From Xanthobacter flavus (GTDB lineage: Bacteria; Pseudomonadota; Alphaproteobacteria; Rhizobiales; Xanthobacteraceae), in the NCBI RefSeq assembly GCF_017875275.1, contig NZ_JAGGML010000001.1, forward strand, positions 2,935,001-2,999,000: a stretch of 64,000 bases of DNA, written 5' to 3'. The translations under genes and the position numbers were made by a program. Under the pieces are notes generated by a model. That model worked only from the letters and a program-made list of their open reading frames with translations. It ran no database searches and had not been told where the DNA came from. Shown here piece by piece: positions 6,407 to 31,552 of the stretch; the stretch's first letter is position 1; each line of letters begins with the position of its first letter.

Positions 6407-6925
6407 TCAGGCCTCGGCCTTGTGCTTCGCCTGCTTGGTGAATTTCTTGATGACCCGGTCGCGCTTCAGCTTGGAGATGTGATCGATGAAGAGCACGCCG
6501 TTGAGGTGGTCGATCTCGTGCTGCACGCAGGTGGCGAACAGGCCCTCGGCCTCCACCTCCCGCGTCTTGCCCTCCACATCCAGGAAACGCACCGCCACCT
6601 TCGCCGGGCGCTCAACCTCCTCGTAATATTCGGGGATGGAGAGGCAGCCCTCGCTGTAGATGGAGGTTTCCTCCGAGGCGGCGATGATTTCCGGATTGAT
6701 GAGGGCGAGGGGCTTCTTGTTCTCGCCGTCGCGCGCCACGTCGATGGTGATGACGCGGCGCTGCACGCCCACCTGTATGGCTGCCAGCCCGATGCCGGGG
6801 GCGTCGTACATGGTCTCGAACATGTCCTCGACCAGCTTGCGCACCTCGCTGTCGATCTTTTCGACCGGGGCGGAAAGCGTGCGCAGCTTGGGCTCGGGGA
6901 TGATGAGGATGGGCCGGATCGTCAT
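6407..6925 (-). CDS. def: Peptide deformylase
   Basis: Def removes the formyl group from nascent N termini; it is a metalloenzyme. All three family motifs are present in the 172-aa protein: [17 protein letters not shown] (metal-ligand Cys) and [14 protein letters not shown] (two metal-ligand His and the catalytic Glu). The C terminus is lysine-rich. It is first in the def-fmt operon and divergent from rmuC. Confidence 0.97.
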
Positions 6926-8646: not shown

Positions 8647-9525
8647 ATGCCTGAACTGCCCGAGGTGGAAACCGTCCGCCGCGGCCTGATGCCCGTCTTG
8701 CAGGGCGCCGTGATCGAAAGCGCCGAGGCGCGCCGCCCGGACCTGCGCTGGCCGCTGCCCGAGAACTTCGCCGAACGCCTGGCCGGCCGCCGCGTGGAGG
8801 CCATCGGCCGCCGCGCCAAATATCTGCTCGCCGACCTCGACGGGGGCGAGGTGATGATCCTGCACCTCGGCATGTCCGGATCCATCCGGGTGGAAGGCGC
8901 GCACGCGCGCCGGACGGGTGCCTTCCACTATCCCCGCGCCGAGGCCGGCCCGCACGACCACGTGGTGCTGCACCTCGCCGGCGGCACTACCATCACCTTC
9001 AACGACCCGCGCCGTTTCGGGGCCATCCTCATCGTGCCCTACGACCGGCTGGAGAGCCATCCGCTCCTCGCCGGCCTCGGCCCCGAGCCGCTGGGCAACG
9101 CCTTCCATGCGGATTATCTCGCGAGCGCCTTCGCCCGCCGCAGCACCTCGCTGAAGGCGGCGCTGCTGGACCAGAAGCTGGTGGCGGGACTCGGCAACAT
9201 CTATGTGTGCGAGGCGCTGTTCCGCGCCGGCCTCTCGCCCCGGCGCCTCGCCCACACCATCGTGACCAAGGACGGCAGGCCGACCCAACGGGCGGAGCGT
9301 CTCGTCACCGCCATCCGCGACGTGCTGCGCGAGGCCATCCAGGCCGGCGGCTCGTCGCTCCGCGACCACAAGCAGGTGAGCGGAGAGCTGGGCTACTTCC
9401 AGCACACCTTCCGCGTCTACGACCGCGAGGGCGAGCCCTGCCGCACCCGGCATTGCAAGGGCACGGTCCAGCGCATCGTGCAGAGCGGGCGCTCCACCTT
9501 CTTCTGCCCAACCTGCCAGAGATAG
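8647..9525 (+). CDS. mutM: Formamidopyrimidine-DNA glycosylase
   Basis: MutM excises 8-oxoguanine and formamidopyrimidines and nicks the DNA. After the initiator Met the catalytic N-terminal Pro-Glu is present ([14 protein letters not shown]), which fixes the start at 8647 although the frame is open earlier. Other signs are the H2TH region with [15 protein letters not shown] and the C-terminal zinc finger, here C-x4-C then C-x2-C (FFCPTCQR), as I recall being usual in alphaproteobacteria. The protein is 292 aa. Confidence 0.96.
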
Positions 9526-10579: not shown

Positions 10580-10664
10580 GCCCAGGTGGCGGAATTGGTA
10601 GACGCGCTGGTTTCAGGTACCAGTGGTGAAAGCCGTGGAGGTTCGAGTCCTCTCCTGGGCACCA
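10580..10664 (+). tRNA. tRNA-Leu (anticodon CAG)
   Basis: The acceptor stem GCCCAGG (10580-10586) pairs with CCTGGGC (10654-10660), followed by discriminator A and an encoded CCA. The anticodon stem CTGGT/ACCAG encloses the loop TTCAGGT, giving CAG. A long class II variable arm follows, then the T-arm with GGTTCGAGTCC. The gene is intact; its 3' end is the integration target of the islands that follow. Confidence 0.96.
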
Positions 10665-10665
10665 T
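10648..10665 (+). repeat. attL: tRNA-Leu 3' end, left boundary of the islands
   Basis: TCCTCTCCTGGGCACCAT (18 bp) recurs exactly at 24471-24488, and its last 17 bp at 36300-36316. It is the tRNA acceptor 3' strand plus CCA and one base, the usual crossover region for tyrosine recombinases. The tRNA gene is kept whole by this copy. Confidence 0.9.
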
Positions 10666-10727
10666 CGCTCCCCTAGAGCGTTGACGCTTCAGAACATATT
10701 GATGTAGCTGTGTTTCTCGCCGCTCAA

Positions 10728-10739
10728 ACTGGTACACAT
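10728..10739 (+). repeat. Possible arm-type site, left end of island 1
   Basis: ACTGGTACACAT occurs here and again at 24396-24407, about 60-90 bp inside each end of island 1 in the same orientation. A 12-bp match so placed could be an integrase arm site. The left copy overlaps the integrase start codon, hinting at autoregulation. With only one pair seen, this is tentative. Confidence 0.4.
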
Positions 10740-12399
10740 GAGCGGCCACATGGCTCTTCCTATGACACGCCCCACACGGCGCCCTGAGTCGTCGTTCCTG
10801 ACGTTCCGCAAGCGCACCCCCAAGGACATCCTCGCCAAGGCGAAGGGACAGGTTGTCACCATCGCGTTCCCGCAGGACAGCGAGGGGCAGCACACGGCCG
10901 CGTTCACCATTGGCCCGGAAATCAAGTTCTCTCTCAAGGCGCGCGACCCTGCTAACGCTAGGGCCAGAACCGGCTTCGCCGAATCGTTCCTTGCGCGCCA
11001 TTGGGAAGCCATCCGCAAAGGGCCTGTCTCCCTTACCCATAAGCAGACCGTCGCCCTGTCGGGGGAGGTCTACCGACTCTTTGCCGATGGCATGGAAGAC
11101 GACCCCGGTTCTGCCAAGCTGTGGGATGCGGTCCTTGCTGGCATCGCCGAAGCGATGGCAGGGCCTGTCGGGGGCGGTAGACATTTGCTCATCATCGGTG
11201 ACGAGCAGGAGCGCCGGGACATCCTGTTGGAAGAGCGGTTCGGCAAGCTGGCCGACCGCGTGCTGTCCGCTCATCATCTGGAGGTTGACCAGACCAGCCG
11301 CAAAGCACTGCTGTTTCACGCTGCAATCGCACTCAAGGATGCGGCGCTGAAGCTGGATCGCAATGTGGCTGGCGACTACCGGCCGGACCCCAATGCGGGA
11401 CGGTTCGGCGGCGCATTTGTGCCAACCTCGCAGACGGCGGCGGCAGCGGAGGGCGGAAAGGCTGTGACCTTCGCGAGCTTGGTGACGGGCTGGTGGAAGG
11501 AAGGTGAGGCGGCACGCCTCTCCCGCAAGACGCACCAAGCCTATGCCAGCGCCGTGGACCGCCTGGCCGAGCATGTCGGACACAGCGACGCCGCGCGGAT
11601 CACGGCAGACGACATCATCGGCCTGAAGAGCGCGCGCCTCGCCGCCGGGGTGAGCCCCAAGACGGTGAAGGACAGCGACCTTGCGGGGCTCAAGGCCATC
11701 TTCCGATGGGCTGTGGCCAACCGGCTGCTCCCCGCGAACCCGGCTGAGGGCATCACCGTGAAGCGGGTGAAGGCGGTCAAGCTCCGTGGAAAGGGGCTCA
11801 CGGACAAGGAAGCCGATGCCATTCTCGCAGCCGCCTTCCGCCATCAGCGGGGGCAGGAGCGGCCAAAGACGTTCGCGGCCAAGCGGTGGGTGCCATGGCT
11901 GTGCGCCTACACCGGGGCACGCGTGGGTGAGATTGCCCAACTCCGCAAACAGGATGTCCGGCAGGAAGGCGACCATTGGGTGCTCACCCTGACGCCCGAG
12001 GCGGGCGCGGTGAAGAACAAGGAGGCGCGCGAAGTCCCCCTGCATCCGCACCTTGTCGAGATGGGCTTCCCGGAGTTCGTGAGGCAGGCGGAGAATGGCC
12101 ACCTGTTCCTCACTCCGAGTCGGAGCGGGGACGTCCTTGGTCCGCTTCAGGGCGTGAAGAACCGCCTTGCCGAGTTTGCCCGTGAAGTTGTCAAAGACCC
12201 CAATGTCGCCCCGAACCATGGATGGCGCCACCGGTTCAAGACGGTGGGGCTGGAAGCGGGCGTTTCGGAACGGGTGCTGGATGCCATCTGTGGTCACGCC
12301 CCGCGAACGGTGGGAGCCGCCTACGGGGACGTGACGTTGAACGCACGGGCGGATGGCATCGCCAAGTTCCCGAGGTATCAGATCGAAACAGAGGTGTGA
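10738..12399 (+). CDS. Tyrosine-type site-specific integrase of island 1
   Basis: A 553-aa phage-type integrase, presumably responsible for integration at tRNA-Leu. The N-terminal 200 residues are a long DNA-binding arm region. A core-binding SAM-like domain follows (SRKTHQAYASAVDRL), then the catalytic domain with TGARVGEIAQLR (Arg), HGWRHRF (His-x-x-Arg) and CGHAPRTVGAAYGD (His and nucleophile Tyr). The gene starts 73 bp from the attL core, the standard arrangement. The ATG at 10738 gives the longest product; an ATG at 10762 (MTRPTRRPE) is possible. Confidence 0.92.
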   Translation: MSGHMALPMTRPTRRPESSFLTFRKRTPKDILAKAKGQVVTIAFPQDSEGQHTAAFTIGPEIKFSLKARDPANARARTGFAESFLARHWEAIRKGPVSLTHKQTVALSGEVYRLFADGMEDDPGSAKLWDAVLAGIAEAMAGPVGGGRHLLIIGDEQERRDILLEERFGKLADRVLSAHHLEVDQTSRKALLFHAAIALKDAALKLDRNVAGDYRPDPNAGRFGGAFVPTSQTAAAAEGGKAVTFASLVTGWWKEGEAARLSRKTHQAYASAVDRLAEHVGHSDAARITADDIIGLKSARLAAGVSPKTVKDSDLAGLKAIFRWAVANRLLPANPAEGITVKRVKAVKLRGKGLTDKEADAILAAAFRHQRGQERPKTFAAKRWVPWLCAYTGARVGEIAQLRKQDVRQEGDHWVLTLTPEAGAVKNKEAREVPLHPHLVEMGFPEFVRQAENGHLFLTPSRSGDVLGPLQGVKNRLAEFAREVVKDPNVAPNHGWRHRFKTVGLEAGVSERVLDAICGHAPRTVGAAYGDVTLNARADGIAKFPRYQIETEV

Positions 12400-12433
12400 C
12401 CTCTGATTTGATGCCTGGGGATGATCGCACCCA

Positions 12434-12628
12434 TCAGGCGGTGGGCTCCTGAGAGGCGGGAAGGTCGCGAAGCGCTGCCTTCCGCCATTCCGACAGGAGG
12501 AAACGCAGGACATCGGTGAAGGACGTGACCTTGCCGGGGCGGATGACGCGGTGGATGTCCCGGATGGTGGTCATGTCGGTGGCGTCGAGGCGCGCTGTGA
12601 CATGGTGGGGGTAGGCGTTGAGGGTGAT
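12434..12628 (-). CDS. Small ribbon-helix-helix-like ORF without a canonical start
   Basis: The minus strand encodes a 64-codon frame convergent with the integrase and ending at 12434. It reads VTARLDATDMTTIRDIHRVI and then TSFTDVLRFLLSEWRK, the strand-helix-helix layout of small RHH repressors. An AGGAGA site sits at 12635-12640, but the codon at the right distance (12626-12628) is ATC. The first in-frame ATG is internal, at 12574, after the RHH strand. It may use a rare ATC start, be a decayed gene, or be a shorter 46-aa protein. Confidence 0.4.
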   Translation of the reverse strand: MTLNAYPHHVTARLDATDMTTIRDIHRVIRPGKVTSFTDVLRFLLSEWRKAALRDLPASQEPTA

Positions 12629-12828
12629 TGTGTGATCTCCTAGATATAGTGTGTTACGAAAAAATCGCGCTAGATGTTGTGTTACTTGAAAACAGGGGCG
12701 CGAAAGCAGGCGAGCCGATCAAAGCGGCTCAGAAGCCCGTAGGAGTCCAAGAAGGTCGCTCGGCTAGTCCTGTAGCCTGACGATGCTCCATTGACTCCCA
12801 CGGGGCTCCCATTCGATCTGAGCGAGTC

Positions 12829-13602
12829 TCAGGCGCGGAGGTAGACGTGGTCAGCCTCACTGGGCAGAGCGTCCAGCACCAGCCGGGCCATAGGGTCGAC
12901 CTTCCCGGCGAACCGGGTCACGTCCCTGAGCAACACGGCCTTGGACTTGCAGAAGCTGCGGCTGGTCCACCGAGGGAAGCCGTCCGGTGTCTTGCCCTCG
13001 CGCCGCTGAAGGGCGAACTGGGCTCGATCCTTGGTGAGGATAACCCGCCAGCCATCGTTCAGCCGACAGACCCCCTTCCGGTACAGGTCTTCGGTCTCCT
13101 TGTTCCCACCAGGGGCAGGCGCACCGAAGGGCACGAAGCGGCCACGGCGACGGGCCATCAGCTCCGACAGAGTGCTCGGTCCTGTGTCTGTGTCGGCGCC
13201 TGGGGTGCTGTGCAGCCCAACCTCAGAGAACAGGGACGGGGCCATAGAGGCCCATTCGGGAAGGTCCAGAAGCGTTTCCATGACGGTGGGGTCGATGGTC
13301 AATCCCAGCCCAGCCACGGCCACCAACAGTTCGTCCCGCGTCGGGTGGGCACTCAGCTTGCGCCATGCCCTGCGAGAGACAGTCCCGACAGCGATGTCCC
13401 GTCGCTGGACAAGCCAAGACGATCCACCCTTGGCGAGGATCACGCGATGGCGCGGACCCAGAATGGCGGTGACAAATCCATAATCGTCGTCTCCCTCCAG
13501 AAGGCTCCGGACGGGCATGTCCTTCAGAGCGGTGGCAATGAGCTGTGCAGCCTTTGCACGAACGGCCTTGTCGATCCTGCGTTGTCGCGCGGTGGTGCTC
13601 AT
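12829..13602 (-). CDS. Hypothetical protein with an internal duplication, 257 aa
   Basis: I recognise no family. The start at 13602 (MSTTARQRRIDKAV) has a GAGG site about 6 nt upstream; longer frames lack one. Two modules resemble each other: RVILAKGGSSWLVQRR in the first third and RVILTKDRAQFALQRR in the last third, each followed by a basic W/S-rich turn and a helix. This suggests a repeated beta-rich domain, perhaps nucleic-acid binding given its charge. The gene is transcribed toward the integrase and has a long hairpin-bearing leader upstream. Confidence 0.75.
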   Translation of the reverse strand: MSTTARQRRIDKAVRAKAAQLIATALKDMPVRSLLEGDDDYGFVTAILGPRHRVILAKGGSSWLVQRRDIAVGTVSRRAWRKLSAHPTRDELLVAVAGLGLTIDPTVMETLLDLPEWASMAPSLFSEVGLHSTPGADTDTGPSTLSELMARRRGRFVPFGAPAPGGNKETEDLYRKGVCRLNDGWRVILTKDRAQFALQRREGKTPDGFPRWTSRSFCKSKAVLLRDVTRFAGKVDPMARLVLDALPSEADHVYLRA

Positions 13603-13654
13603 GGTGTGCCTCGGTGTTGGGATGATGGGTGGGGGTGGTGAAGTGGATGGGGTG

Positions 13655-13730
13655 CCAGACCAGAAGCATCCCGAGCGGTGGAAGGGCGCTCTGTGACGGC
13701 GGTCGCGCGGGAGAGATGCTTCCGGTCTGG
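13655..13730. repeat. 16-bp inverted repeat in the leader of the 257-aa gene
   Basis: CCAGACCAGAAGCATC (13655-13670) pairs with GATGCTTCCGGTCTGG (13715-13730), with 15 Watson-Crick pairs and one G-U possible, across 44 nt. On the minus strand it lies 53 nt upstream of the 257-aa start codon, so it may be a leader hairpin or a paired operator. Confidence 0.6.
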
Positions 13731-13805
13731 TCTTGGGTTGGGAAGGCAATGCCCCTCGGTCGTCGCAGACATCGACCTTCGAGCGAAACGCTCTGTGAAG
13801 GGGCG

Positions 13806-13847
13806 CCATGTCGTGAGGTCCTGCCCGTGGTGGGCGGGACGACATGG
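13806..13847. repeat. Bulged 16-bp hairpin
   Basis: CCATGTCGT (13806-13814) pairs with ACGACATGG (13839-13847). Inside, CCTGCCC (13820-13826) pairs with GGGCGGG (13832-13838) with one G-U, around the loop GTGGT. A 5-nt bulge lies on the left arm. It is a stable structure on either strand and has no T-run to make it a terminator. Confidence 0.6.
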
Positions 13848-14073
13848 GATTGGGGAGCGCGACGGCGGCACACGGGGAGGCTGACGGCCCGTCCCGACCG
13901 ACTCACTGTCATGCGAGCGGGGCGGGTATCAGCCTTCCGGTGTGTCGTTGTGTTCGGGAAAAATGATGTCCACCCCGCAGTCCCTGACTGGCAATGCGTT
14001 CGCCGTGTGATCCTGAGCGAGGCGGTCCTCTATCAGTAGGAGAGAACAAACGACAGGAGGCCCATCTGGTCGT

Positions 14074-14266
14074 GGCAGTGGCTCAAGGTATCGAGATGTT
14101 CCCTCTACGATCCCTAGGTCAGTCGGAGAGCTAGAGAACTCCTGTGGGAGGGAAACTTCGTTTCTGATCCTCTAGGCAGGTACCCATTCCGAGGTCATCA
14201 GGAGACCCTGATGTGGGACTCTGTGAGTACACCTAGAGTTAATCTTTCTCACCCCTAGGCAGTAGG
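14074..14266 (+). repeat. Structured direct repeat, copy A (193 bp)
   Basis: This aligns over its whole length with 14368-14560 at an offset of 294 bp. It can form hairpins in series: GAAAC-TTC-GTTTC (14152-14164), CATCAGG-AGAC-CCTGATG (14196-14213) and an imperfect ACTCTGTG/CCTAGAGT (14218-14239). The first hairpin differs from copy B by a compensatory A-T to G-C pair change. It ends with a stretch resembling the 3' end of the small membrane-protein gene that overlaps copy B. Confidence 0.75.
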
Positions 14267-14367
14267 GTCGAGTAAATAGGATAGCGTCGAATGGGGCGGG
14301 TAACGGCTTCCTGCGTGGCGCTGCGGTTAGAAAAAGCGATGTCCATCCCACGGGTGCGGGTGATGCT

Positions 14368-14560
14368 GGCGGTGGCTCAGGGTGTCTGATGTTCCCTATA
14401 CGATCCCGAGGTCAGTCGGAGAGCTAGAGAACTCCTGGTGGAGGGAGACTTCGTCTCTGATCCTCTGAGCAGGTCTGACAATACAGGACCATCATGTAAC
14501 CCTGATGTGGGACTCTATGAGTACACATAGAGTTAATCTTTCTCACCCTAGGGCAGTAGG
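14368..14560 (+). repeat. Structured direct repeat, copy B (193 bp)
   Basis: The second copy of the element at 14074. Its hairpins are GAGAC-TTC-GTCTC (14445-14457), an imperfect CATCATG/CCTGATG (about 14490-14507), and a perfect 8-bp stem ACTCTATG/CATAGAGT around AGTACA (14512-14533). Its right end overlaps the 3' end of the minus-strand small membrane-protein frame (stop at 14548). Confidence 0.75.
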
Positions 14561-14643
14561 AGGAGAATAATAAGGACAATCAGGAGTAGCTGCCCCGCGA
14601 CGGCCCACAACCCAACTCGGTCGTGGTCATTGAAGCGGCCCAT
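14548..14643 (-). pseudogene. Paralogue of the small membrane protein, start unclear
   Basis: From an ATG at 14643 the product is 31 aa: GRFNDHDRVGLWAV, then a hydrophobic segment LLLIVLIILLLLP. It matches the 55-aa protein at 15403-15570 (GRFNDHDRIGLWAI). The homology continues upstream in frame (HLRRRPHAGVGP against HLRRYTHPEIGP) but no ATG, GTG or TTG is available there. It is therefore either a shortened gene or a decayed duplicate. It lies just downstream of rha. Confidence 0.5.
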
Positions 14644-14750
14644 CGGGCCAACCCCAGCGTGGGGGCGGCGCCTCAGATGCGCAGGGAGGGGCGTGGGAGT
14701 CGTCTCGAGTTTTTCAGGCAGGTAGGCAGCCTGAGCATGAGAAATCGACT

Positions 14751-15179
14751 CTAGCGGCGCGCTCTGGCGATCCGAGGGCGCTCCTCCATCTGGGCCACCG
14801 TGGCCGCCAGCTGGGCAATCTCGGTCGACACCGGAGGGGGAGCCTTCAGGGCCTCCTCCATGGCGTTGAACTCGGCGATGTAGGCCAGCTTGAACTTGAG
14901 CGCCTTGGCTCCGGTGAAGCCCATGGCGAGCAGCGTGAAGCCGTCACGGGTCATGTCGAAGGAGCGAACCTGACGGGTTCCTCCGCGAGGCATTACAACG
15001 GTTTCCGACGTGGCCCCAAAATTGGGGGCACATGACGGAGCCTCGCTCATCAGCGTGTCGATGTCCCTGAGGACGTGATCGTGCCGCTTCCCGAAGTATG
15101 CCGCGACGTCCTTCGAGCTGGCGACCACGAAGCGGCCCACTGTCCTGACAATGGGCTTAGCGGTGACGAGGTCTCCCAT
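14751..15179 (-). CDS. Rha family phage regulatory protein
   Basis: A 142-aa protein of the phage regulatory Rha family, found in temperate phages and thought to influence lytic growth. Family hallmarks are VVASSKDVAAYFGKRHDHVLRDI, RSFDMTRDGFTLLAMGFTG (in parts) and the AKALKFKLAYIAEFNAME helix. The ATG at 15179 overlaps the stop of the 53-aa gene upstream (TGATG), so translation is probably coupled. It is the last intact gene of a minus-strand cassette: resolvase, membrane protein, 53-aa protein, rha. Confidence 0.85.
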   Translation of the reverse strand: MGDLVTAKPIVRTVGRFVVASSKDVAAYFGKRHDHVLRDIDTLMSEAPSCAPNFGATSETVVMPRGGTRQVRSFDMTRDGFTLLAMGFTGAKALKFKLAYIAEFNAMEEALKAPPPVSTEIAQLAATVAQMEERPRIARARR

Positions 15180-15340
15180 CAGTGGAACACTCCGTCCTGG
15201 CAGGACTGACACAGGCCGGAAATCCGGTGCTCCCGCGCCGACGCCTCGTCGTTGAACATGAAGAAGCGGACCCGCGTGCCGGTCGCTTCGTCGACCAGCT
15301 CGGTTCCCCGGTGGCCGCCAGACTCGCTTGGCCGTTCCAC
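15179..15340 (-). CDS. Small hypothetical protein (53 aa) with a CxxC, GTG start
   Basis: Read from a GTG at 15340 with a GGGG site about 8 nt upstream. The product has TGTRVRFFMFNDEASA and ends GLCQSCQDGVFH, with one Cys-x2-Cys pair that could hold half a metal site. It looks like small phage-borne proteins whose function is unknown. Its stop overlaps the rha start by one base, supporting a real gene in this cassette. Confidence 0.6.
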   Translation of the reverse strand: MERPSESGGHRGTELVDEATGTRVRFFMFNDEASAREHRISGLCQSCQDGVFH

Positions 15341-15402
15341 GCTACGTCCCCACCGTTTCGAGCTTGACGGACTCCTGCGGCGCTCTGAGGCGATCTGTGG
15401 GC

Positions 15403-15570
15403 TTATCGTCCGAGCACCAACACAGCGGCGACGATGAAGAAGACGACATGAGCCGTAATCGCCCACAACCCTATCCGGTCGTGGTCATTGAAGCGGCCTT
15501 TGGGGCCGATCTCAGGGTGTGTGTAGCGCCGAAGGTGAGGCGGTGTTTCATCCCGTAGCCACTCGCTCAT
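15403..15570 (-). CDS. Small single-pass membrane protein, 55 aa
   Basis: The product has a soluble, charged N half (SEWLRDETPPHLRRYTHPEI), a GRFNDHDRIGLWAI motif and one C-terminal transmembrane helix (HVVFFIVAAVLVLG), so a cytoplasmic N terminus is likely. Its ATG overlaps the resolvase stop (ATGA), pointing to translational coupling. A diverged copy lies at 14548-14643. The function is not known to me; its place in a phage-type cassette suggests a host- or membrane-targeted role. Confidence 0.75.
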   Translation of the reverse strand: MSEWLRDETPPHLRRYTHPEIGPKGRFNDHDRIGLWAITAHVVFFIVAAVLVLGR

Positions 15571-16142
15571 GCCTCTGCTCCCTGTCCCTGAACGATCCGG
15601 TAGACGCTCCCCCTGCCAATCCCGACAGCCGCAGCGATCTCGGTGGGCGTCTTCCCTTCGCGGTGGAGCCGCATCACCTCTTCCGACTTCGCCCGCGCGG
15701 TGGGCTTACGACCGAGGTATTTCCCCTCTGCCTTCGCCTTGGCGATGCCCTCCCTCTGGCGCTCCAACATCATCTCACGCTCGAACTGCGCGAAGCCCGC
15801 GAAGATGGTGAGGATCAGGCGCCCCGTCGCGCTCTTGGTGTCGACCACCTCGCCACCGAGGTTCAGCACTCGGAGACCCACTCCCTTCGCATCGAGGTCG
15901 CGGACGATCTCCCACAGGTGGATGGTGGAGCGGGCAAGCCTGTCGATCTTGGTGATGACGAGGGTGTCCCCCTCCCGCACGAACTCCAGCGCCTGCTTCA
16001 GCCTGTCCCGGTCCCCAACCGAGGACACATGCTCGGCAAACACCTTGCCGCATCCCGCCGCATCGAGGTCGCGTCGCTGGGCCTCAAGCCCTGCCTCCTG
16101 TTCGGTGGTGGAGGTCCGCGCGTAACCGACCAACATCCCCAT
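15567..16142 (-). CDS. Serine recombinase (resolvase/invertase family)
   Basis: A 191-aa small serine recombinase that would invert or resolve DNA at short sites. The catalytic serine is in VGYARTSTTEQ. The conserved region VITKIDRLARS and the long E-helix FAQFEREMMLERQREGI are present, and a C-terminal Hin-type HTH ends the protein (TPTEIAAAVGIGRGSVYRI). The start at 16142 has a GGGAGG site 8 nt upstream. It heads a coupled four-gene cassette. It could act on the 294-bp-spaced repeats nearby, but nothing shows this. Confidence 0.92.
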   Translation of the reverse strand: MGMLVGYARTSTTEQEAGLEAQRRDLDAAGCGKVFAEHVSSVGDRDRLKQALEFVREGDTLVITKIDRLARSTIHLWEIVRDLDAKGVGLRVLNLGGEVVDTKSATGRLILTIFAGFAQFEREMMLERQREGIAKAKAEGKYLGRKPTARAKSEEVMRLHREGKTPTEIAAAVGIGRGSVYRIVQGQGAEA

Positions 16143-16517
16143 GTGCCCTGCCTCCCGGCCTTCGGCGTCCAAAAGGTCTAGAGATGAGAGTCGGAACCGT
16201 CCGAAATGTCAAGTCCATCCTATTGGACGCAATCGCGAGCGTCACCGGACGCGTCCGCATGGGCAGGGTCTATTGGGCGGCGAGGGATGACGGTCGCCGG
16301 GCGAGTCGCATACGCTGTTAACGTTTCGGTGGTGCATAGGGTGAGCGGAGCCGGGGGCAAGAGGGAGTGTGAGGGTGGAAATTTCTGCACATCCATCTGA
16401 AGATCTGTGTATTTGCGCTATTGGGTAAAGATGAGCTGTGCGCAGGCTATTGAACGCGATCGGTGGCTAAAATATTAAAGCGTAGGTCGCTTGTAAGGCG
16501 CTTGTAGGTCGAGGGCG
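16143..16517. other. 375-bp intergenic region, divergent promoters
   Basis: It separates the resolvase cassette (minus) from the GIY-YIG gene (plus). It becomes AT-rich after about 16370 (TAAAATATTAAAG near 16470) and holds a short imperfect repeat GCTTGTAAGGC/GCTTGTAGGTC just before the GIY-YIG start. I see no protein or RNA gene. Confidence 0.6.
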
Positions 16518-17303
16518 ATGATGGCCAATAAAATATTCTCTTACGAAGTGGCAGAGCAGTTGCGGGCTTACGTTTATCGCTTAATCGATCCCCGCGACGA
16601 AAAGACGTTTTATGTTGGAAAGGGAAGAGGTAACCGCGTTTTTCAGCACGCTATTGAAGCCAACGTCGCTGAGGAACAAGAGACCGATATCATGGGGTTG
16701 AAACTAAATCACATCCGGGAAATTCAACGTTCAGGGCATGAGGTTAAGTACGTCATACACCGTCATGGCATGGATGATGACACGGCCTTTCAAGTTGAAG
16801 CAGCCCTTATTGATGCCTATGTTGATATGAATCCGGATCTGCGAAATTCAATCAGAGGGCATAATGCCTCAATATACGGCGTAGCAACTGTTGAAGAAAT
16901 TCTTGGACGATACAATCTGCCGCCGCTTGAAGTCAGGAGCGGAGAGAAGTTATTGGCGATCACTATCAACAAGCTACGTGGTCGGCGCGATCAGGAGGTT
17001 ATTTTCGATCTGATACGTTACTGCTGGCCTCTCAGTCGGAAGCGTGCCGAGACCGTGGATTATGTGCTGGCAGTCGACCGCGGAGTGGTCGTCGGTGTCT
17101 TCAAGCCCCTGAGCTGGGCTCCAGCCCGCGCTTCTGACTTTCCCGACATTCGCGACTTAGTTGACGAGCCACATCGGCTGGCATTCCAGGGTGAGCGTGC
17201 CCCTAAGGATGTCTGGGAGTTCTACGTGGGCGAGCATGGCAAACGCATTAATCCCAGCGACCTACCGCCCGCCCGCCAGTCCTGCCGGTACATTAACTGC
17301 TGA
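16518..17303 (+). CDS. GIY-YIG domain protein (LEM-3-like)
   Basis: A 261-aa protein opening with a GIY-YIG-type nuclease domain: YVYRLIDPRDEKTFYVGKG, then NRVFQHAIEA, a conserved HGMDDDTAF and the glutamate-bearing QVEAALIDAYV. It resembles uncharacterised bacterial LEM-3-like GIY-YIG proteins. The C half has a second unknown domain (DYVLAVDRGVVVGVFKPLSW, VWEFYVGEHGKRI), perhaps modified-DNA or nucleotide binding. The gene is AT-rich relative to its neighbours, a sign of recent transfer. It sits beside the type I restriction operon; a defence role is likely but inferred. Confidence 0.8.
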   Translation: MMANKIFSYEVAEQLRAYVYRLIDPRDEKTFYVGKGRGNRVFQHAIEANVAEEQETDIMGLKLNHIREIQRSGHEVKYVIHRHGMDDDTAFQVEAALIDAYVDMNPDLRNSIRGHNASIYGVATVEEILGRYNLPPLEVRSGEKLLAITINKLRGRRDQEVIFDLIRYCWPLSRKRAETVDYVLAVDRGVVVGVFKPLSWAPARASDFPDIRDLVDEPHRLAFQGERAPKDVWEFYVGEHGKRINPSDLPPARQSCRYINC

Positions 17304-17596
17304 CGTCGCCGACGAAGTGTAATCTAAGGCGCTAGCGAAGGCCTCTCAATCTACCAATTCGCTCAAAATGGATTGAGCGCGCGTTTGGGCGTTGCGTGTC
17401 TTCATCACTGCCGTTGGTTGCCCGCTCTGCCAACAGAGCCAGTCATAGGGGTCGCGGCTCCCTTTGCTTGGATCTTGCTGCCGCATCGCGCTATGACATC
17501 TCAATGCCCTCTCGCCGATCATACAAGTCGGGGGATATGGGGGGAGCGTTTCGTCTGCACGGAGGGAATATGTGTCCGTAAATCGGAGCACGGATT

Positions 17597-20500
17597 TCAA
17601 CTCGGTCGAGCGACGATGTCCTCAGCACCCAAACGGGCCTTCGCCCGAAGCGCCTCATAAAGCTGCCCCGGCCCAAGCAGGGTGTCCTTCAGCCCCGCCC
17701 TTACCTTCTCCGAGTCCAGCGCCTGCTTGCTCATGGTGGTGTGTGCGGCGAGGGCATCCATGATGGCGTTCAGCAACTCGGTGGCGAGGTCAGGGGAGTT
17801 CGCGAACTGCTCCTTGGTGTTGTTGCTGGCCTGTTCCACCAGAAGGTCGGACTCCAGCAGCTTCCCCTTCAGCACGTTGTTCACGTAGACGAGTTTGTCG
17901 TCCTCCGTTAGCTCGCCCACGAACAGATCGTTGACCCGCTCGATAATCTCCGTGAGCAATGCCCGCTGCTTCTCCTGAACGGCTCCGGCGCCCGTCTCGG
18001 TCATGGGTGCCAGTTGCTCGCCCTGTCCGCCACCAAGCGCGAGGGTCCGCCTACCCTGATCGTTGAGGCGGTGGTGGGTGAGCTTCACGCGGCTGAGGTC
18101 CACGCCCTCCCGTTCGCGCCCGAAGTCGAGGAGAGGCAGCAGCCGCTTGAAGAAGATGGCCCGCTTCTCCACCGCCGTGGACCCATAATCGAACATTTGG
18201 GAGAGGAAGGCGTAGACCCGCAGGTAGGTCGCCATGTCGGTCTTGAAGAGAAGCAGCGCCTCCTGGGCATCCTTGGCGTCCCGCTCGGCCTGGGCATCGC
18301 CGCGTGCGCGGGCTGCCTCGCGTTCCATCTGAAGCGACCTGAATGACCGCAACAGCCGGTCTGCGACGGGGAGCAGTGCCGCGTCGAGCTGGCCCTGTGT
18401 CGCCCCCGGGTCCATCTCCACATTGACGACGCGGTCAACCTCGTTGTCGTCATAGTGGCCGGAGGCGTCCAGCTTGGCCTTGAGGTTCAGCACGATGTGC
18501 GGGTCGGTGACGCCTGCTAGTTCGGCCGTCTCGTAATAGGTCTTGAAGGCCTTCAGGATTTCATCCGGCTCATTGACGAAGTCGAGGATGTAGGTGGTGT
18601 CCTTCCCCGGATGGGCACGGTTGAGCCGCGACAGGGTCTGCACCGCCTGAATGCCCGCGAGACGACGGTCTACATACATGCCGCACAGCAAGGGCTGATC
18701 GAAGCCGGTCTGGAACTTGTTGGCGACGAGAAGGATCTGATACTCCTCGGTTGCGAACGCCTCCCGGATGTCCCGCCCCTTCAGCCCCGGATTGAGCGAA
18801 CGGCTCACTTCGGTGAAGGGTTCGTCTCCGCTCTCGGGGTCGTCCACCTCGCCGGAGAAGGCCACCAGAGTGCCGATGCGGTAGCCGTTGCGCTTGATGT
18901 ACTGGTCTATGGCGAGCTGCCAGCGCACCGCCTCCTTGCGGCTTGCGACCACCACCATGGCCTTCGCCTTGCCCTCCAGCAGCGGCGCGACGTTGGCGCG
19001 GAAGTGCTCGACCACGACCTGCACCTTCTGGGCGATGTTGTAGGGGTGGAGGCGCACCCACTGCATGATGCCCTTGACGGCGGTGCTGCGCTCGACCGTC
19101 TCCTCGGTCATCTCCTCCCCGTCATGCACGAGGCGGAAGGCGAGCTTGTACGGGGTATAGTTCTTCAGCACATCGAGGATGAAGCCCTCCTCGATGGCCT
19201 GCCGCATGGAATAGACGTGGAAGGCCTGTGGCTTGTTGGTGTCGCTGGCGGGCTCATCGGGCTCGGGCCGCCTGCCGAACAGCTCCAGCGTCTTGGCCTT
19301 CGGAGTGGCGGTGAAGGCGATGTAGGTGATGCCCTTGTCGTTCGCGCGGGCGGCCATCTGGAGGGCGAGGAGGTCTTCCGTGCCCACCTCTCCGCCATCG
19401 GCCACTTCGGCCATCTCCTCGGCGGACAGCACTTGCTTCAGCTTAGAGGCAGCCTCGCCGGTCTGGGACGAGTGGGCTTCATCCGCGATCACGGCGAAGC
19501 GCTTGCCCTGCGTGGCGGCCAGCTCCTGCACCGCCTTCAGGGCGAAGGGAAAGGTCTGGATCGTGCAAACGACGATCTTCTTGCCGCCGGACAGGGCTTC
19601 CGCGAGCTGGCTGCTCTTGGCCCCGCTCTCGCTCTTGATGGTGGCGACCACACCGGTGGTACGCTCGAAATCGAAGATGGCTTCCTGAAGCTGGCTGTCG
19701 AGCACCGTGCGGTCGCTCACCACCAGCACCGTGTCGAACACCTTGGCGTTGGCCGCGTCATGCAGTTCGGCGAGGAAGTGCGCCGTCCAGGCGATGGAAT
19801 TGGTCTTGCCCGAGCCCGCCGAGTGCTGGATCAGGTATTTGCTTCCCGGCCCCTCGGCGAGCACCGTGCCCACGAGGCGGCGGGTGGCGTCAAGCTGGTG
19901 ATAGCGGGGGAAGATGAGGGAAGTGACCCGTTTCTTGGCATCGCGCTTGGCGACGATGTAGCGGCCGAGGATTTCCAGCCAGCTCTCGCGCTCCCACACA
20001 TCTTCCCAGAGATAGGCCGTGGGGGCGCCAGCGGGGTTCACGGGGTTGCCTGCCGCGCCGTTGTTGCCCTTGTCGAAGGGCAGGAAGCGGGTCGCCGCGC
20101 CCTCAAGGCGGGTGGTCATGCGGACAAGCGAATTGCTCACCGCGAAGTGGACGAGGGCGCCACGGGGGAACTCCAGCAGCGGCTCCGGGAAGGGCTGCCC
20201 CTTGGGCCTGGGGTCGCGGTCGAAGCGATACTGGTCAACAGCATCTTCCACGCGCTGGGTGTAGTCGCTCTTCAGCTCGGCGGTGGCGACGGGGAGGCCG
20301 TTGAGGAAGAGCACGAGATCGAGGGCATTCTGGTTGGCGGCCGAATAGCGCACCTGTCGCACCACCCGCAGGCGGTTGGCCTGATAGCGGGCCTGAAGAT
20401 CGGCATTCATACCAAGCGCGGGGCGGAACTGGGCGAGGCTCACGGGCTGGCGCAGGCCCACCACCTCGATCCCGTGGCGCAGCACATCCAGCGTTCCGCG

Positions 20501-20740
20501 CGGGTCCATCTGGTGGCGCAGCCGGTCCAGCAGCACGGTGGACGCGGCGGCGCCGTGGCTCTTGGTCAGCGCTTCCCACGCCTTGGGCTGGGTGTCCTGC
20601 ACCCAAGCCAGCACATCGGCCGGGAACAGCGCCCGCGCCCGGTCAAAGCCCTCCGCAGCGCTCTCGTCATAGAGCCAGCCCCGCGCGGCAAGGGCCTCGC
20701 AGATGCCCACCTCGAAGGCGATCTCCCGATGCAGGCTCAT
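17597..20740 (-). CDS. hsdR: Type I restriction endonuclease subunit R
   Basis: HsdR is the ATP-driven translocase and nuclease of a type I restriction complex. The N-terminal nuclease centre is D141 with E155-L-K157 (LFLNGLPVATAELKSDY). The helicase core has Walker A HSAGSGKTNS, Walker B IADEAHSSQTG and the late motifs KFQTGFDQPLL and QTLSRLNRAHPGK. A C-terminal helical domain binds HsdM/S. At 1,047 aa it is full length. The start at 20740 has a GAGGGAG site 8 nt upstream. It is last in the operon, 19 bp after hsdS. Confidence 0.95.
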   Translation of the reverse strand: MSLHREIAFEVGICEALAARGWLYDESAAEGFDRARALFPADVLAWVQDTQPKAWEALTKSHGAAASTVLLDRLRHQMDPRGTLDVLRHGIEVVGLRQPVSLAQFRPALGMNADLQARYQANRLRVVRQVRYSAANQNALDLVLFLNGLPVATAELKSDYTQRVEDAVDQYRFDRDPRPKGQPFPEPLLEFPRGALVHFAVSNSLVRMTTRLEGAATRFLPFDKGNNGAAGNPVNPAGAPTAYLWEDVWERESWLEILGRYIVAKRDAKKRVTSLIFPRYHQLDATRRLVGTVLAEGPGSKYLIQHSAGSGKTNSIAWTAHFLAELHDAANAKVFDTVLVVSDRTVLDSQLQEAIFDFERTTGVVATIKSESGAKSSQLAEALSGGKKIVVCTIQTFPFALKAVQELAATQGKRFAVIADEAHSSQTGEAASKLKQVLSAEEMAEVADGGEVGTEDLLALQMAARANDKGITYIAFTATPKAKTLELFGRRPEPDEPASDTNKPQAFHVYSMRQAIEEGFILDVLKNYTPYKLAFRLVHDGEEMTEETVERSTAVKGIMQWVRLHPYNIAQKVQVVVEHFRANVAPLLEGKAKAMVVVASRKEAVRWQLAIDQYIKRNGYRIGTLVAFSGEVDDPESGDEPFTEVSRSLNPGLKGRDIREAFATEEYQILLVANKFQTGFDQPLLCGMYVDRRLAGIQAVQTLSRLNRAHPGKDTTYILDFVNEPDEILKAFKTYYETAELAGVTDPHIVLNLKAKLDASGHYDDNEVDRVVNVEMDPGATQGQLDAALLPVADRLLRSFRSLQMEREAARARGDAQAERDAKDAQEALLLFKTDMATYLRVYAFLSQMFDYGSTAVEKRAIFFKRLLPLLDFGREREGVDLSRVKLTHHRLNDQGRRTLALGGGQGEQLAPMTETGAGAVQEKQRALLTEIIERVNDLFVGELTEDDKLVYVNNVLKGKLLESDLLVEQASNNTKEQFANSPDLATELLNAIMDALAAHTTMSKQALDSEKVRAGLKDTLLGPGQLYEALRAKARLGAEDIVARPS

Positions 20741-20759
20741 GGCCGGGGCTCCCTCGCGC

Positions 20760-22082
20760 TCATGCCGCAACCTCTTCGGCAGCGACAGCGTCGCGCACAT
20801 CGATCTTGCCGGTGACGGCAGCGGAGATCAGCGCTGCGCGGCGTTCCTTGAGAAGGGCGATGGCGCGTTCGGCTTCGGAGGTGAGGGTGTCGAGCTTGGC
20901 GGTCTGGATAGCAATGTGTTTGGAAATCGCAAACTGCTCATCACGTGGGGGAACCGGCACCAAGAACTCTTTAAGGCTCGACTGGGGCAGGTTGTTTGCT
21001 AGTCCCTCTGCTCCGCTTATCGCCTGGACAATCTGATCCCTCATAATTGTCGCCCCCATCAAGGCCACAAACCATTCCGGAGCCTCGTCAGGTGCTAACC
21101 GTACACGATAGATCTTGTCTGAAAGCAACAGCCGCGCTCTTACTGCAGAAACGTATGCGGTCGATCCAACGAACTTAGGTGATCCATTGGCGCGGGACAT
21201 CAGGATATCACCGGGACGCACCTCATATGCGATAACAGGAGCAAGTTCAGGCGGAAGCGCTTTATTTTCTTGCTCCGAGAATAAGCCTCCATTTGTGCAT
21301 CCAGCCTTGAGGACCCCCCATTCGAGGTCTTCGGCTGGGCGGCTCAAACATTCTGGACTCCACCCCTGCTCGATCGCTGCGACGATCCGGCGGAGTTGCT
21401 TCACTTCCCAATGCGCTGGAATCTCGCCCAGCCATGCGATGCCGCTATCCTTCATCGGGGCATTGGGGTCGAGCCCCTTGGTGACGGCGTGCGAGATGAC
21501 AGCGCGGCGCTTCTCGGCCAGCAGCGCAATCAACCGCTCCTGCTCGGCCACCAGCGCATCGATCTTGGCGGTCTCACGGTCGAGGAAGGCGGCGATGGCG
21601 CGTTGCTCAGGAAGCGGGGGCTTGGGCAGTTCCATCTGGCCCATGAAATCCCAACTAGCCCTTGGCATCTTCGCGCCATACGTCGAGCCGTCGACGATTA
21701 CGATGAATTCACGGGTTAACATAAGGTACTGCAGAAACCTGCCAGCCATATCCGATGCCGGACGAAGAACGTGGAAGTCCCCCACGGCTTCACCGGAGAG
21801 TTGGCAGAGGAAAACTTTTGCGAGATACGGGCGAAGCTTCCCGAACAGGATATCCCCTGCCTTGAAGGCAATGCCATCGCCTTCGTACTGCGTTTCAGAG
21901 GGACGGAAACGCCCCGTCCAACCTTCGATGTTTTCGAGAGCAACAGGCGCGGTTTGGGCCTCGGCCTTCTCGGTAACGAGTGTTGCTAGGCGTTTCAGAC
22001 GATAGACCCACCAATGGTCGGGCACGCACCCAAGCCATTCGATCCCGCTGTCCTTGTTGCTGGGGTATGCCTTCCGGCTCAT
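20760..22082 (-). CDS. hsdS: Type I restriction specificity subunit S
   Basis: HsdS chooses the DNA target. The 440-aa protein has the classic two-fold plan: each half begins with a KDSGIEWLG or KDSGIAWLG element, then a target-recognition domain, then a coiled spacer (LPEQRAIAAFLDRETAKID; PPRDEQFAISKHIAIQTAKLD). The DNA of the recognition domains is more AT-rich than that of hsdM or hsdR, as expected for exchangeable domains. Its start overlaps the stop of the 128-aa gene by 4 bp. Confidence 0.94.
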   Translation of the reverse strand: MSRKAYPSNKDSGIEWLGCVPDHWWVYRLKRLATLVTEKAEAQTAPVALENIEGWTGRFRPSETQYEGDGIAFKAGDILFGKLRPYLAKVFLCQLSGEAVGDFHVLRPASDMAGRFLQYLMLTREFIVIVDGSTYGAKMPRASWDFMGQMELPKPPLPEQRAIAAFLDRETAKIDALVAEQERLIALLAEKRRAVISHAVTKGLDPNAPMKDSGIAWLGEIPAHWEVKQLRRIVAAIEQGWSPECLSRPAEDLEWGVLKAGCTNGGLFSEQENKALPPELAPVIAYEVRPGDILMSRANGSPKFVGSTAYVSAVRARLLLSDKIYRVRLAPDEAPEWFVALMGATIMRDQIVQAISGAEGLANNLPQSSLKEFLVPVPPRDEQFAISKHIAIQTAKLDTLTSEAERAIALLKERRAALISAAVTGKIDVRDAVAAEEVAA

Positions 22083-22461
22083 CGGCTTTGCCCCGCAACA
22101 GCCTCGATCACACGGCGAGCTTCTTCAATCGTCTTCGGCTTGAAGCACACAAGCGCAGCCCTCCGGAAGCCGGGGATTTGCTCCAGATTGCTGTTCCGAC
22201 CGGGCTTTTCTCCCTCGGCATAGCCAGGCTTGAGGTTGTGGAGGATGTCCTCCATATCGTTCAGGCGGATGGCTTCGAGCGCGACCCAAAGGTTCTGCTG
22301 CGTGCTGCGCCCCGGCTCGTGGCCGATCCCGGTTTCCCGCCCCTTGGCATAGCGCTCGACATAGACGGTGTCCGCTTTGCGAACGCCATCATCAAGCTTT
22401 TCCAAGGCGGGGTGCGATTTCAGCATGGAACGGATGCCTTCCCGCAAGGCGTCAATCGTGC

Positions 22462-22465
<4 letters not shown>
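22079..22465 (-). CDS. Accessory protein between hsdM and hsdS, 128 aa
   Basis: A soluble protein not recognised as a named family: an N-terminal helix [21 protein letters not shown], a middle with [23 protein letters not shown], and a C-terminal helix [13 protein letters not shown]. It overlaps hsdM and hsdS by 4 bp each (ATGA both times), so it is embedded in the operon and translationally coupled. The tight placement suggests a part in assembly, specificity or control of the restriction complex; an anti-restriction or immunity role is an alternative. Confidence 0.85.
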
Positions 22466-24276
<1,811 letters not shown>

Positions 24277-24395
24277 CGATCAACCCTCGTTGGCAACGGC
24301 GTAGTGCAATTGAGCTTGGCGGAGACGACGGGGTTATGGAGATTCGAGTACGCTGTCAGGACTCGAACTCATGCAGCTTGCGCCGCGGCCACCGC

Positions 24396-24407
24396 ACTGG
24401 TACACAT
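24396..24407 (+). repeat. Possible arm-type site, right end of island 1
   Basis: Second copy of ACTGGTACACAT, 64 bp inside the right att copy of island 1 and in the same orientation as the one at 10728. Confidence 0.35.
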
Positions 24408-24470
24408 CGGCTTCCTTGCGGCGGCTGAAAACGCAGTAAAATCAATGGCGGGCGGCCAGATTAGGGCCAA

Positions 24471-24490
24471 TCCTCTCCTGGGCACCATTT
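24471..24490 (+). repeat. Internal att site between islands 1 and 2
   Basis: It shares 18 bp exactly with attL (24471-24488) and 19 bp exactly with the right copy (24472-24490). Only the tRNA 3' end is present, so it is an attachment-site remnant and not a second tRNA gene. A 6-bp hairpin, TTACCC/GGGTAA (24489-24504), directly follows. Confidence 0.9.
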
Positions 24491-28595: not shown

Positions 28596-28777
28596 GGTGG
28601 CAGCGAGTGCGGAAAGGGCCACCACGTGCAGAAGGGCAATCCACTCCTCCGGGGCTCTCGACATAAATATAAATAAATCAATTGCTTATGGAAAATTGCC
28701 GGCGCAGGACACGCTTGCCGGCCATCCGCAACCGCGATATCTCTTCGGAGCCGCTGGAGTGTAGGATTTGTGATCGT

Positions 28778-31552
28778 ATGAACGCCGTCGAGATTGAACA
28801 GGCTATATCCGCGCTGGCCGAGCAGCCTTTCGACCCGCAAGAGTTTCCCTTTCTCTTCCTTCAGGCCTTCGGCAACAAGGAGACGACGATACGCCGACTG
28901 CGCAAGGGCGAATCGAACAAGTCCGACTTTGCCGGCCCTTGGGGCGGTGTACTCCAGACGAACAATATCCACATCGCGGTTGCCGCCCCCGGCGAGGTCA
29001 CGCGCACCCTGGCCGCCCTGAAGGCGAGCCCTGCCACGACCAAGGCCAAGGCGAAGTTTGTCCTGGCGACCGATGGTGAGACGTTCGAGGCCGAGGACCT
29101 CACATCGGACGAAGCGCCGGTGGCCTGCGCCTACAAGGATTTCCCGGACCATTTCGGCTTCTTCCTGCCGCTTGCCGGCATCACCACCGTCAAGCAGGTC
29201 CGCGAAAGCTCCTTCGATATCCGCGCCACAAGCCGGCTCAACCGGCTCTATATCGAGCTGTTAAAGGACAACCCCGATTGGGGCGCGGCCGATCGGCGCC
29301 ACGACCTCAACCATTTCCTCGCGCGGCTGATCTTCTGCTTCTTCGCCGAGGACACGGACATCTTTTTCGGCGAGCGGCTCTTCACCGCCACCGTTGAGCA
29401 GATGAGCGCGCGGGATTCGTCCAACACCCATGAGGTGATCGGCACACTCTTCCGCGCCATGAACACCAAGATCGACGACCGCCCCGCCGCGAAGCTGCCG
29501 CGCTGGGCGGATGCCTTTCCTTATGTGAATGGCGGGCTCTTTTCCGGCAGCACAGAGGCGCCGCGCTTCAGCAAGATCGCGCGCTCCTATTTGCTGCACA
29601 TCGGCAATCTGGATTGGAAGAAGATCAACCCGGACATCTTCGGCTCCATGATCCAAGCGGTGGCGGAGGATGAGGAGCGCGGCGCGCTGGGCATGCACTA
29701 TACCAGCGTGCCGAACATCCTGAAGGTGCTGAACCCGCTGTTCCTCGACGATCTGCGCGCGAAGCTGGAGGAGGCGGGGGACAATCCCCGCAGCCTGCTG
29801 AACCTGCGCAAGCGCATGGCGCGCATCCGGGTGTTCGATCCCGCCTGCGGCTCCGGCAATTTCCTGGTCATTGCCTATAAGGAGATGCGGGAGATCGAGG
29901 CTGAGATCAACAAGCGGCGCGGCGAGCCGGAACGGCGCAGCGATATCCCGCTCACCAATTTCCGGGGCATCGAGATCCGCGATTTTCCCGCCGAGATCGC
30001 GCGCCTCGCCCTCATCATCGCCGAGTACCAGTGCGACGTGCTCTATCGCGGCCAGAAAGAGGCTCTGCGAAATTTTCTGCCCCTCGATGCCGAGAACTGG
30101 ATCACCTGCGATAATGCCTTGCGCGTTGATTGGCTCAGCATTTGCCCCCCCACGGGAATTGGGGTGAAGCATATGGCGGATGATTTGTTTCACACGCCGC
30201 TCGACCAAGCGCAGATCGACTTCGAGAACGAGGGTGGAGAGACCTATATTTGTGGAAACCCGCCCTATCTTGGATTTACATGGCAATCTCGGGAACAAAA
30301 AGCGGAACTCCAGGCCCTGTTCGAAGGGCGCGTGAGGAACTGGAAGTCGCTCGACTACGTAGCTGGGTGGTTTTTAAAGGCTGCCGATTACGGAACCAAA
30401 ACAAAAAGTATTGCAGCTTTTGTCGCAACGAACTCGATCTGCCAAGGCGAACAAGTACCAATATTGTGGCCAATTATATTTAATATGGGACATGATATAA
30501 TTTTTGCGCATACAAGCCTTAAGTGGGTGAACTTGGCGAGTCACAATGCGGGAGTTACGGTTGTGATCGTCGGCATATCAAATAGGAATGTAAAGGGTCG
30601 CCGATTATTTTCAATTGCCGAAGATGGTTCAACGATCGAAAAATATGTGGACCACATTAATGCTTATTTGATAGCTGGAATAGACATAATCGTGAAGCCG
30701 ATAACGAGGGCAACTGATGAAAGAGGGGTTATGGAATGGGGGAACAAGCCCACCGATGGAGGTAATTTTTTCTTAACTGCTGGTGAGCGAGGTGAATTGT
30801 TGGGGCAGTTTCCGGAAGCTCAACGTTTCATAAGGCGCTTCTTGGGAGCGCAGGAATTTATTCGCGGGCAGGAGAGGTATTGCCTTTGGATTTCCGACGC
30901 CGACCGAGCTGATGCGGAAAAAATCCCCGAAGTTCGACGCCGAATTGATGCGGTCGCAAAGATGCGGTCTGAGAGCAGAGCTGTCGAGACGCGCCCGGCC
31001 GCTTCTTTTCCGCATCGGTTCAGGCAGATCCAATCTGTTGCAAACAAATATTCTATGATTATTGCAAGAGTTAGCTCTGAGGCAAGGGAGTATTTACCGG
31101 TCGGATTGGAGGATGAAAAAACAATCATTGGGGATCGTAATTTTGCTATGTACGATAAACCGTTATGGAACATGGCAGTTATTGTATCGAAATTGCATTT
31201 GGTTTGGATAGGGGCCGTTTGCGTTCGGTTGGAGATGCGATTTTCCTATTCCAATACGCTGGGCTGGAACACCTTTCCGATCCCAACACTCACTGAGAAA
31301 AACAAGTCCGACCTGACCCGCTGCGCCGAGGAGATCCTGTTAGCGCGCGAGGCCCATTTCCCCGCCACCATCGCCGAGCTTTACGACCCGGAAAAAATGC
31401 CCGCCGACCTGCGCGCGGCGCACGAGCGCAATGACGATGTGCTGGAGCGCATCTACATCGGCCGCCGCTTCCGCAACGATACCGAGCGGCTGGAAAAGCT
31501 GTTCGAGCTTTATACGAAGATGACCGCCAAGGGCGGAGGCAAGCATTCATGA
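28778..31552 (+). CDS. Large class I DNA methyltransferase (MmeI/type IIG-like) of the candidate defence operon
   Basis: 924 aa. The AdoMet motif DPACGSGNFLVIAY is at about residue 352 and the catalytic NPPYLGF at about residue 493, an N6-adenine methyltransferase layout. The N-terminal 300 residues (QTNNIHIAVAAPGEV, FPDHFGFFLPLAGI) show no clear PD-(D/E)XK centre, unlike MmeI. From about residue 527 to 835 (30.36-31.28 kb) the DNA turns strikingly AT-rich; this is where a target-recognition domain should lie. I took the ATG at 28778 (MNAVEIEQAIS); the ribosome site is weak. The stop overlaps the next gene by 4 bp. Confidence 0.9.
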   Translation: MNAVEIEQAISALAEQPFDPQEFPFLFLQAFGNKETTIRRLRKGESNKSDFAGPWGGVLQTNNIHIAVAAPGEVTRTLAALKASPATTKAKAKFVLATDGETFEAEDLTSDEAPVACAYKDFPDHFGFFLPLAGITTVKQVRESSFDIRATSRLNRLYIELLKDNPDWGAADRRHDLNHFLARLIFCFFAEDTDIFFGERLFTATVEQMSARDSSNTHEVIGTLFRAMNTKIDDRPAAKLPRWADAFPYVNGGLFSGSTEAPRFSKIARSYLLHIGNLDWKKINPDIFGSMIQAVAEDEERGALGMHYTSVPNILKVLNPLFLDDLRAKLEEAGDNPRSLLNLRKRMARIRVFDPACGSGNFLVIAYKEMREIEAEINKRRGEPERRSDIPLTNFRGIEIRDFPAEIARLALIIAEYQCDVLYRGQKEALRNFLPLDAENWITCDNALRVDWLSICPPTGIGVKHMADDLFHTPLDQAQIDFENEGGETYICGNPPYLGFTWQSREQKAELQALFEGRVRNWKSLDYVAGWFLKAADYGTKTKSIAAFVATNSICQGEQVPILWPIIFNMGHDIIFAHTSLKWVNLASHNAGVTVVIVGISNRNVKGRRLFSIAEDGSTIEKYVDHINAYLIAGIDIIVKPITRATDERGVMEWGNKPTDGGNFFLTAGERGELLGQFPEAQRFIRRFLGAQEFIRGQERYCLWISDADRADAEKIPEVRRRIDAVAKMRSESRAVETRPAASFPHRFRQIQSVANKYSMIIARVSSEAREYLPVGLEDEKTIIGDRNFAMYDKPLWNMAVIVSKLHLVWIGAVCVRLEMRFSYSNTLGWNTFPIPTLTEKNKSDLTRCAEEILLAREAHFPATIAELYDPEKMPADLRAAHERNDDVLERIYIGRRFRNDTERLEKLFELYTKMTAKGGGKHS

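Follow-up and report, generated by a model that had tools for sequence, protein, structure and literature searches.

The island beside tRNA-Leu carries, in the 0.95-kb gap upstream of the leftward gene p257, a tandem duplication whose core has diverged less than its flanks. We tentatively favour reading it as a control region that acts in cis on the leftward operon and has been duplicated locally, its core being conserved as cis-acting sites. In the window (the whole 64,000-nt stretch of DNA that was analysed), copies A and B are offset by 293-294 nt and are 84% identical over about 192 nt by self-alignment. BLAST aligned them over 195 nt with an E value of 7e-56, far beyond chance, which confirmed the two copies described by the first-pass annotation. 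That annotation had given the element a size of 193 bp, but the repeated unit proved larger. Weaker similarity extends leftward to 13914 in A and 14288 in B (47/64 identical near 13914-13980), and about 80 nt of unit A are absent from unit B. With this stretch missing from B, the similarity defines larger repeated units that abut in tandem (Table 1).

Table 1. Coordinates of the tandem units, their hairpins and the neighbouring genes, numbered from the first letter of the window
Feature	Position	Strand	Remarks
tRNA-Leu	10580-10664		
Island 1	10665-24487		13.8 kb, between copies of CTCTCCTGGGCACCA, beside tRNA-Leu
Integrase	10738-12399		island 1, after tRNA-Leu
p257	12829-13602	-	uncharacterised; carries a beta-alpha domain twice; lies downstream of the repeat
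Long hairpin 1	13655-13730		inverted repeat, 16-nt arms, just upstream of p257 start; z -2.6 (+), -5.0 (-)
Long hairpin 2	13806-13847		z -3.5 (+), -4.2 (-)
Long hairpin 3	13868-13947		right arm is the start of unit A; z -7.5 (+), -4.4 (-)
Tandem unit A	13914-14287		core 14095-14266; from self-alignment with B and core vs flank identity
Stem-loop of copy A	14152-14164		GAAAC-TTC-GTTTC, pair A14154-T14162
Hairpin H2	14196-14213		CATCAGG/CCTGATG, perfect 7-bp stem only in A; B counterpart 14490-14507
Tandem unit B	14288-14560		core 14388-14560; from self-alignment with A and core vs flank identity
Stem-loop of copy B	14445-14457		GAGAC-TTC-GTCTC, pair G14447-C14455
Hairpin H3	14511-14534		GACTCTATG/CATAGAGTT, perfect only in B; A counterpart 14217-14240
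Conserved block of B, GTTAATCTTTCTCACCCTAGGGCAGTAGG	14532-14560	+	A counterpart 14238-14266, one-base shift at CCTAGG
Small ORF	14548-14739	-	related to 15403-15570; open frame without clear start; end overlaps copy B
rha	14751-15212		island 1
Resolvase	15567-16172		island 1
GIY-YIG protein	16518-17303		island 1; matches PD-T4-3
Type I R-M system	17597-24276		island 1

The repeated sequence CTCTCCTGGGCACCA, which is the 3' end of tRNA-Leu, recurs at 24473 and 36301. From these three copies (10650-36315) two islands appear to lie in tandem, and the duplication is in the first. Genes of the second island include those for a type IIG R-M enzyme (28682-31552) and for a PDC-S26 protein (31549-32844). 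The final 13 nt of copy B (14548-14560) fall inside the stop-codon end of the small minus-strand ORF that abuts it. This ORF and that at 15403-15570 are tiny, paralogous and membrane-protein-like, and the first may be degenerate, as it has no clear in-frame start near its 5' end. A mobile repeat or MITE was ruled out, since there are only two tandem copies in the 5.35-Mb single-contig genome, and so was a coding repeat, since no reading frame is open through both copies.

The two units have not diverged evenly. Between A and B, 142/158 positions are identical in the core blocks (14095-14181 and 14196-14266), compared to 70/100 in the left flanks (Fisher p = 9e-5), while the spacer between the blocks (14182-14195) retains 5/14. 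As the core diverged less than the flanks of the same duplication, it is probably functional, and, if a single event made both units, the comparison suggests that constraint acts on the core. Gene conversion could also have kept the core alike. It forms part of an alternative that we regard as possible but somewhat doubtful, namely a neutral tandem duplication of an intergenic segment prone to hairpins, in which patchy gene conversion kept the core alike and the changed base pair (below) arose by chance or by template-switch correction of a quasi-palindrome. Unit A starts within long hairpin 3, as this alternative would have it, but the unequal rates of core and flanks argue against it.

The first-pass annotation had taken the serial hairpins of the copies as a sign of a structured RNA or a structured DNA site, which the folding tests did not bear out. 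Compared to dinucleotide shuffles, whole copy A gave z scores of 0.93 and -0.74 and whole copy B of -0.82 and -2.06 (the latter on the minus strand), and the cores alone gave -0.64 to 0.16 over both strands. Thus neither whole copies nor cores were clearly more stable than shuffles in the way expected of a novel structured RNA, and the copies fold at or near the chance level (z 0.93 to -2.06). This agrees with both the control-region reading and a neutral duplication. The consensus fold of A and B by RNAalifold was likewise no better than column shuffles (z -0.66, p 0.26 on the plus strand; z -1.38, p 0.087 on the minus strand). Strong folding belongs instead to the neighbouring segment 13655-13947, whose hairpins (z -2.6 to -7.5) exceed the reported repeat.

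These results also bear on a structured leader RNA, transcribed from the minus strand upstream of p257, whose series of hairpins would serve anti-termination, translation control or processing and would be doubled by the duplication. We consider it unlikely. In its favour, minus-strand folding of B was slightly better preserved than in random mutants of A (fractions 0.025-0.075) and plus-strand folding less well preserved than minus, copy B reached its z of -2.06 on the minus strand, the adjacent segment 13600-13985 folded with a minus-strand z of -5.0, and the leaders of two related islands, L120 and L111, folded with z of about -3. Against it stand the core z scores near 0 on both strands, the consensus fold, the equal strength of the neighbouring hairpins on the plus strand and the lack of any Rfam match. 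A search of the 64 kb at the Rfam gathering score returned only the tRNA and a loose search only chance matches far below that score, in agreement with the earlier statement that no family was recognised.

What, then, of the base pair that differs between the copies? The A-T pair of copy A is indeed a G-C pair in copy B, in otherwise matching stem-loops, and two further stems are perfect in one copy only (H2 in A, H3 in B), all as first reported. H3 of copy B, which is followed by a T-rich tail on the plus strand, was the sole stem to beat all 300 shuffles. We simulated the divergence by placing substitutions, matched in number and kind to those observed, at random on A. At least one compensated pair arose by chance in 16% of simulations under a loose rule (a shared hairpin with a stem of at least 5, a loop of 3-8 and G-U pairs allowed) and in 1.2% under a strict rule (Watson-Crick pairs and a triloop only). 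Moreover, template switching during replication can itself yield compensatory pairs (PMC8794818). Chance or one template-switch event (PMC8794818) could account for the single compensated pair, which needs no RNA function; a lone pair of this kind, seen between two copies, is no evidence for RNA structure. Both its frequency in the simulations (1-16%) and the capacity of template switching to create it favour a neutral duplication, as does the survival of H2 and H3 each in one copy only.

Searches for homologues of the element returned only A and B. Distant BLASTN against phages and plasmids found none, an exact-pattern search of viral contigs gave none or unrelated matches, and 392 genomes of the family and 397 of the order, searched at the DNA level, gave only chance hits, with two 30-nt hits falling in coding sequence. 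An 18-mer scan of 84,980 genomes had no match, and a covariance model of A and B run on 59 sources and 14 same-genus genomes found only the two copies themselves. A and B are thus the only two copies in everything searched, with one compensated pair between them, and the lack of a homologue in phages, plasmids, viral contigs and relatives again favours a neutral duplication.

Islands related by other means have a gap in the same place. Through relatives of the integrase we reached tRNA-adjacent islands in other families, a profile search with p257 added L111 and L120, and L081 (the same island as L122) has a distant p257 homologue. In the related islands, which share integrase, p257-type or resolvase genes, the sequence of the gap differs from island to island. 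In L122/L081 the gap (L122 8900-9510), upstream of the leftward operon, contains about 12 minus-strand sites ATTAC-N10-YAGGAATG, and in L111 it contains four sites (array 9116-9394, related to that of L122) and a 99-nt tandem duplication at 89%. L087, which has rha and a 70%-identical resolvase, carries three to four sites around CTCACCCTAGGA, and the gap of L085 has two. That same-place gaps also carry repeats counts against a neutral duplication and, with the position of the duplication upstream of p257, supports a control region. In the window, as in L120, L111 and L122, the leftward operon has a long inverted repeat upstream of it, which also supports a control region; long hairpins upstream of p257-type genes are not general, and are largely limited to islands with a resolvase of this group. 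Within L087, a 306-nt non-coding segment (6500-6805) with terminal inverted repeats of about 19-20 nt and a 38-codon ORF folds with z of -8.4 on the minus and -7.0 on the plus strand, and may be MITE-like or a structured RNA.

The sites themselves connect the islands less firmly. The pattern YTCACCCTAGGR has a single occurrence in the host genome, which is in copy B, and three in genome G552, all within the L087 array; this supports the control-region reading. As the motif tying copy B to the other islands was picked after inspection, it serves as a lead rather than as proof. When a matrix was built from the other islands, its best hit within the 64 kb fell in copy B at only one of four widths, so that the matrix tests only weakly suggest a motif common to the islands. 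This counts against a control region, as does the strand of the sites, which is minus throughout L122, L111, L087 and L085 but plus in copy B, and the outcome of a search for a sigma-70-type promoter, which found none. Of the three CCTAGG-like sites of A, two are altered in B, and hence a simple array of the CCTAGG site is not conserved.

Two further readings assign the sites other roles. The first-pass annotation had proposed an origin, packaging or recombination site. Such a site of the island (res, origin or cos-like) would fit the direct repeats, the long palindromes and the nearby resolvase and integrase genes of a mobile element, but we consider it quite improbable. The island-1 proteins searched included no recognised replication initiator, relaxase or packaging protein, and the copies are not beside att but some 3.4-3.9 kb away from the tRNA end of island 1. 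In addition, the resolvase gene of L111 and of L122 is directly preceded by another paired palindrome, which looks like its res site and is separate from the array. Alternatively, the arrays would be promoters for the single-subunit RNA polymerase of an incoming phage, so that infection switches the islands on. Copy B reads TAAT-N4-CTCAC-N2-TAGGG and the L087 repeats include AATTACCCCTCACCCTAGGA, a layout that we take to be close to that of T7 and T3 promoters. We give this idea a very slim chance. A search of viral contigs found none with the L087-type site.

The repeat domain of p257, the gene downstream, (consensus CRDGIQWILQRR) is a beta-alpha domain that we did not recognise, and p257 had no sequence match in Pfam, PHROG, NCBIfam or the PDB. 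The AlphaFold model shows two beta-alpha domains (mean pLDDT 68), to which neither Foldseek (best E 0.11) nor VIA-align (best Z 5.0 over 68 residues, rmsd 3.7) assigned a family. Domains of this type occur in 12/397 order genomes and at 26 loci in the species collection. Relatives are spread across alphaproteobacterial genomes, often near integrases.

Taken together, the slower divergence of the core (p = 9e-5) and its place in a likely control region uphold the earlier proposal of a functional non-coding site, although the argument from structure on which that proposal was built is not supported. We infer that the core of the copies is regulatory and that its sites act as DNA. On this account, a non-coding control region would lie between the rha side of the tRNA-Leu defence island and the leftward p257, and a segment beginning inside a long hairpin would have been duplicated in tandem. 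The core would have been kept in both copies for the cis-acting sites that it holds, while spacers and flanks drifted; probably it stayed alike because of these regulatory sites, which would most likely be promoters or sites bound as double-stranded DNA and would control how the leftward operon is expressed. If the gap is such a control region, it would point to how little-known alphaproteobacterial defence islands regulate a conserved uncharacterised gene. The island family itself, with its p257 domain, long leader hairpins and island-specific repeat arrays, may be the better lead.

Among the closest known systems is the tRNA-integrated, prophage-like defence island with a tyrosine integrase, Rha and anti-phage cargo. 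Common to such islands and the one described here are the tRNA-Leu site with direct repeats of the tRNA end, the integrase, Rha, the type I R-M system and PD-T4-3; unlike them, it has a p257 domain and a hairpin- and repeat-bearing gap for which we found no described counterpart. The put anti-termination sites of phage HK022 are duplicated hairpin RNA elements in a leader region. The layout here is similar, with a series of hairpins, in duplicate, in a possible leader region, but copies A and B fold at the chance level. Operator, iteron and tandem promoter arrays of phages and plasmids differ in that here the sites of A are only partly retained in B, there are just two copies of the unit and the binding protein is putative. 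As in such arrays, however, short repeated sites lie in a gap upstream of an operon, and a unit has been duplicated in tandem, here as well as in L111 and L122.
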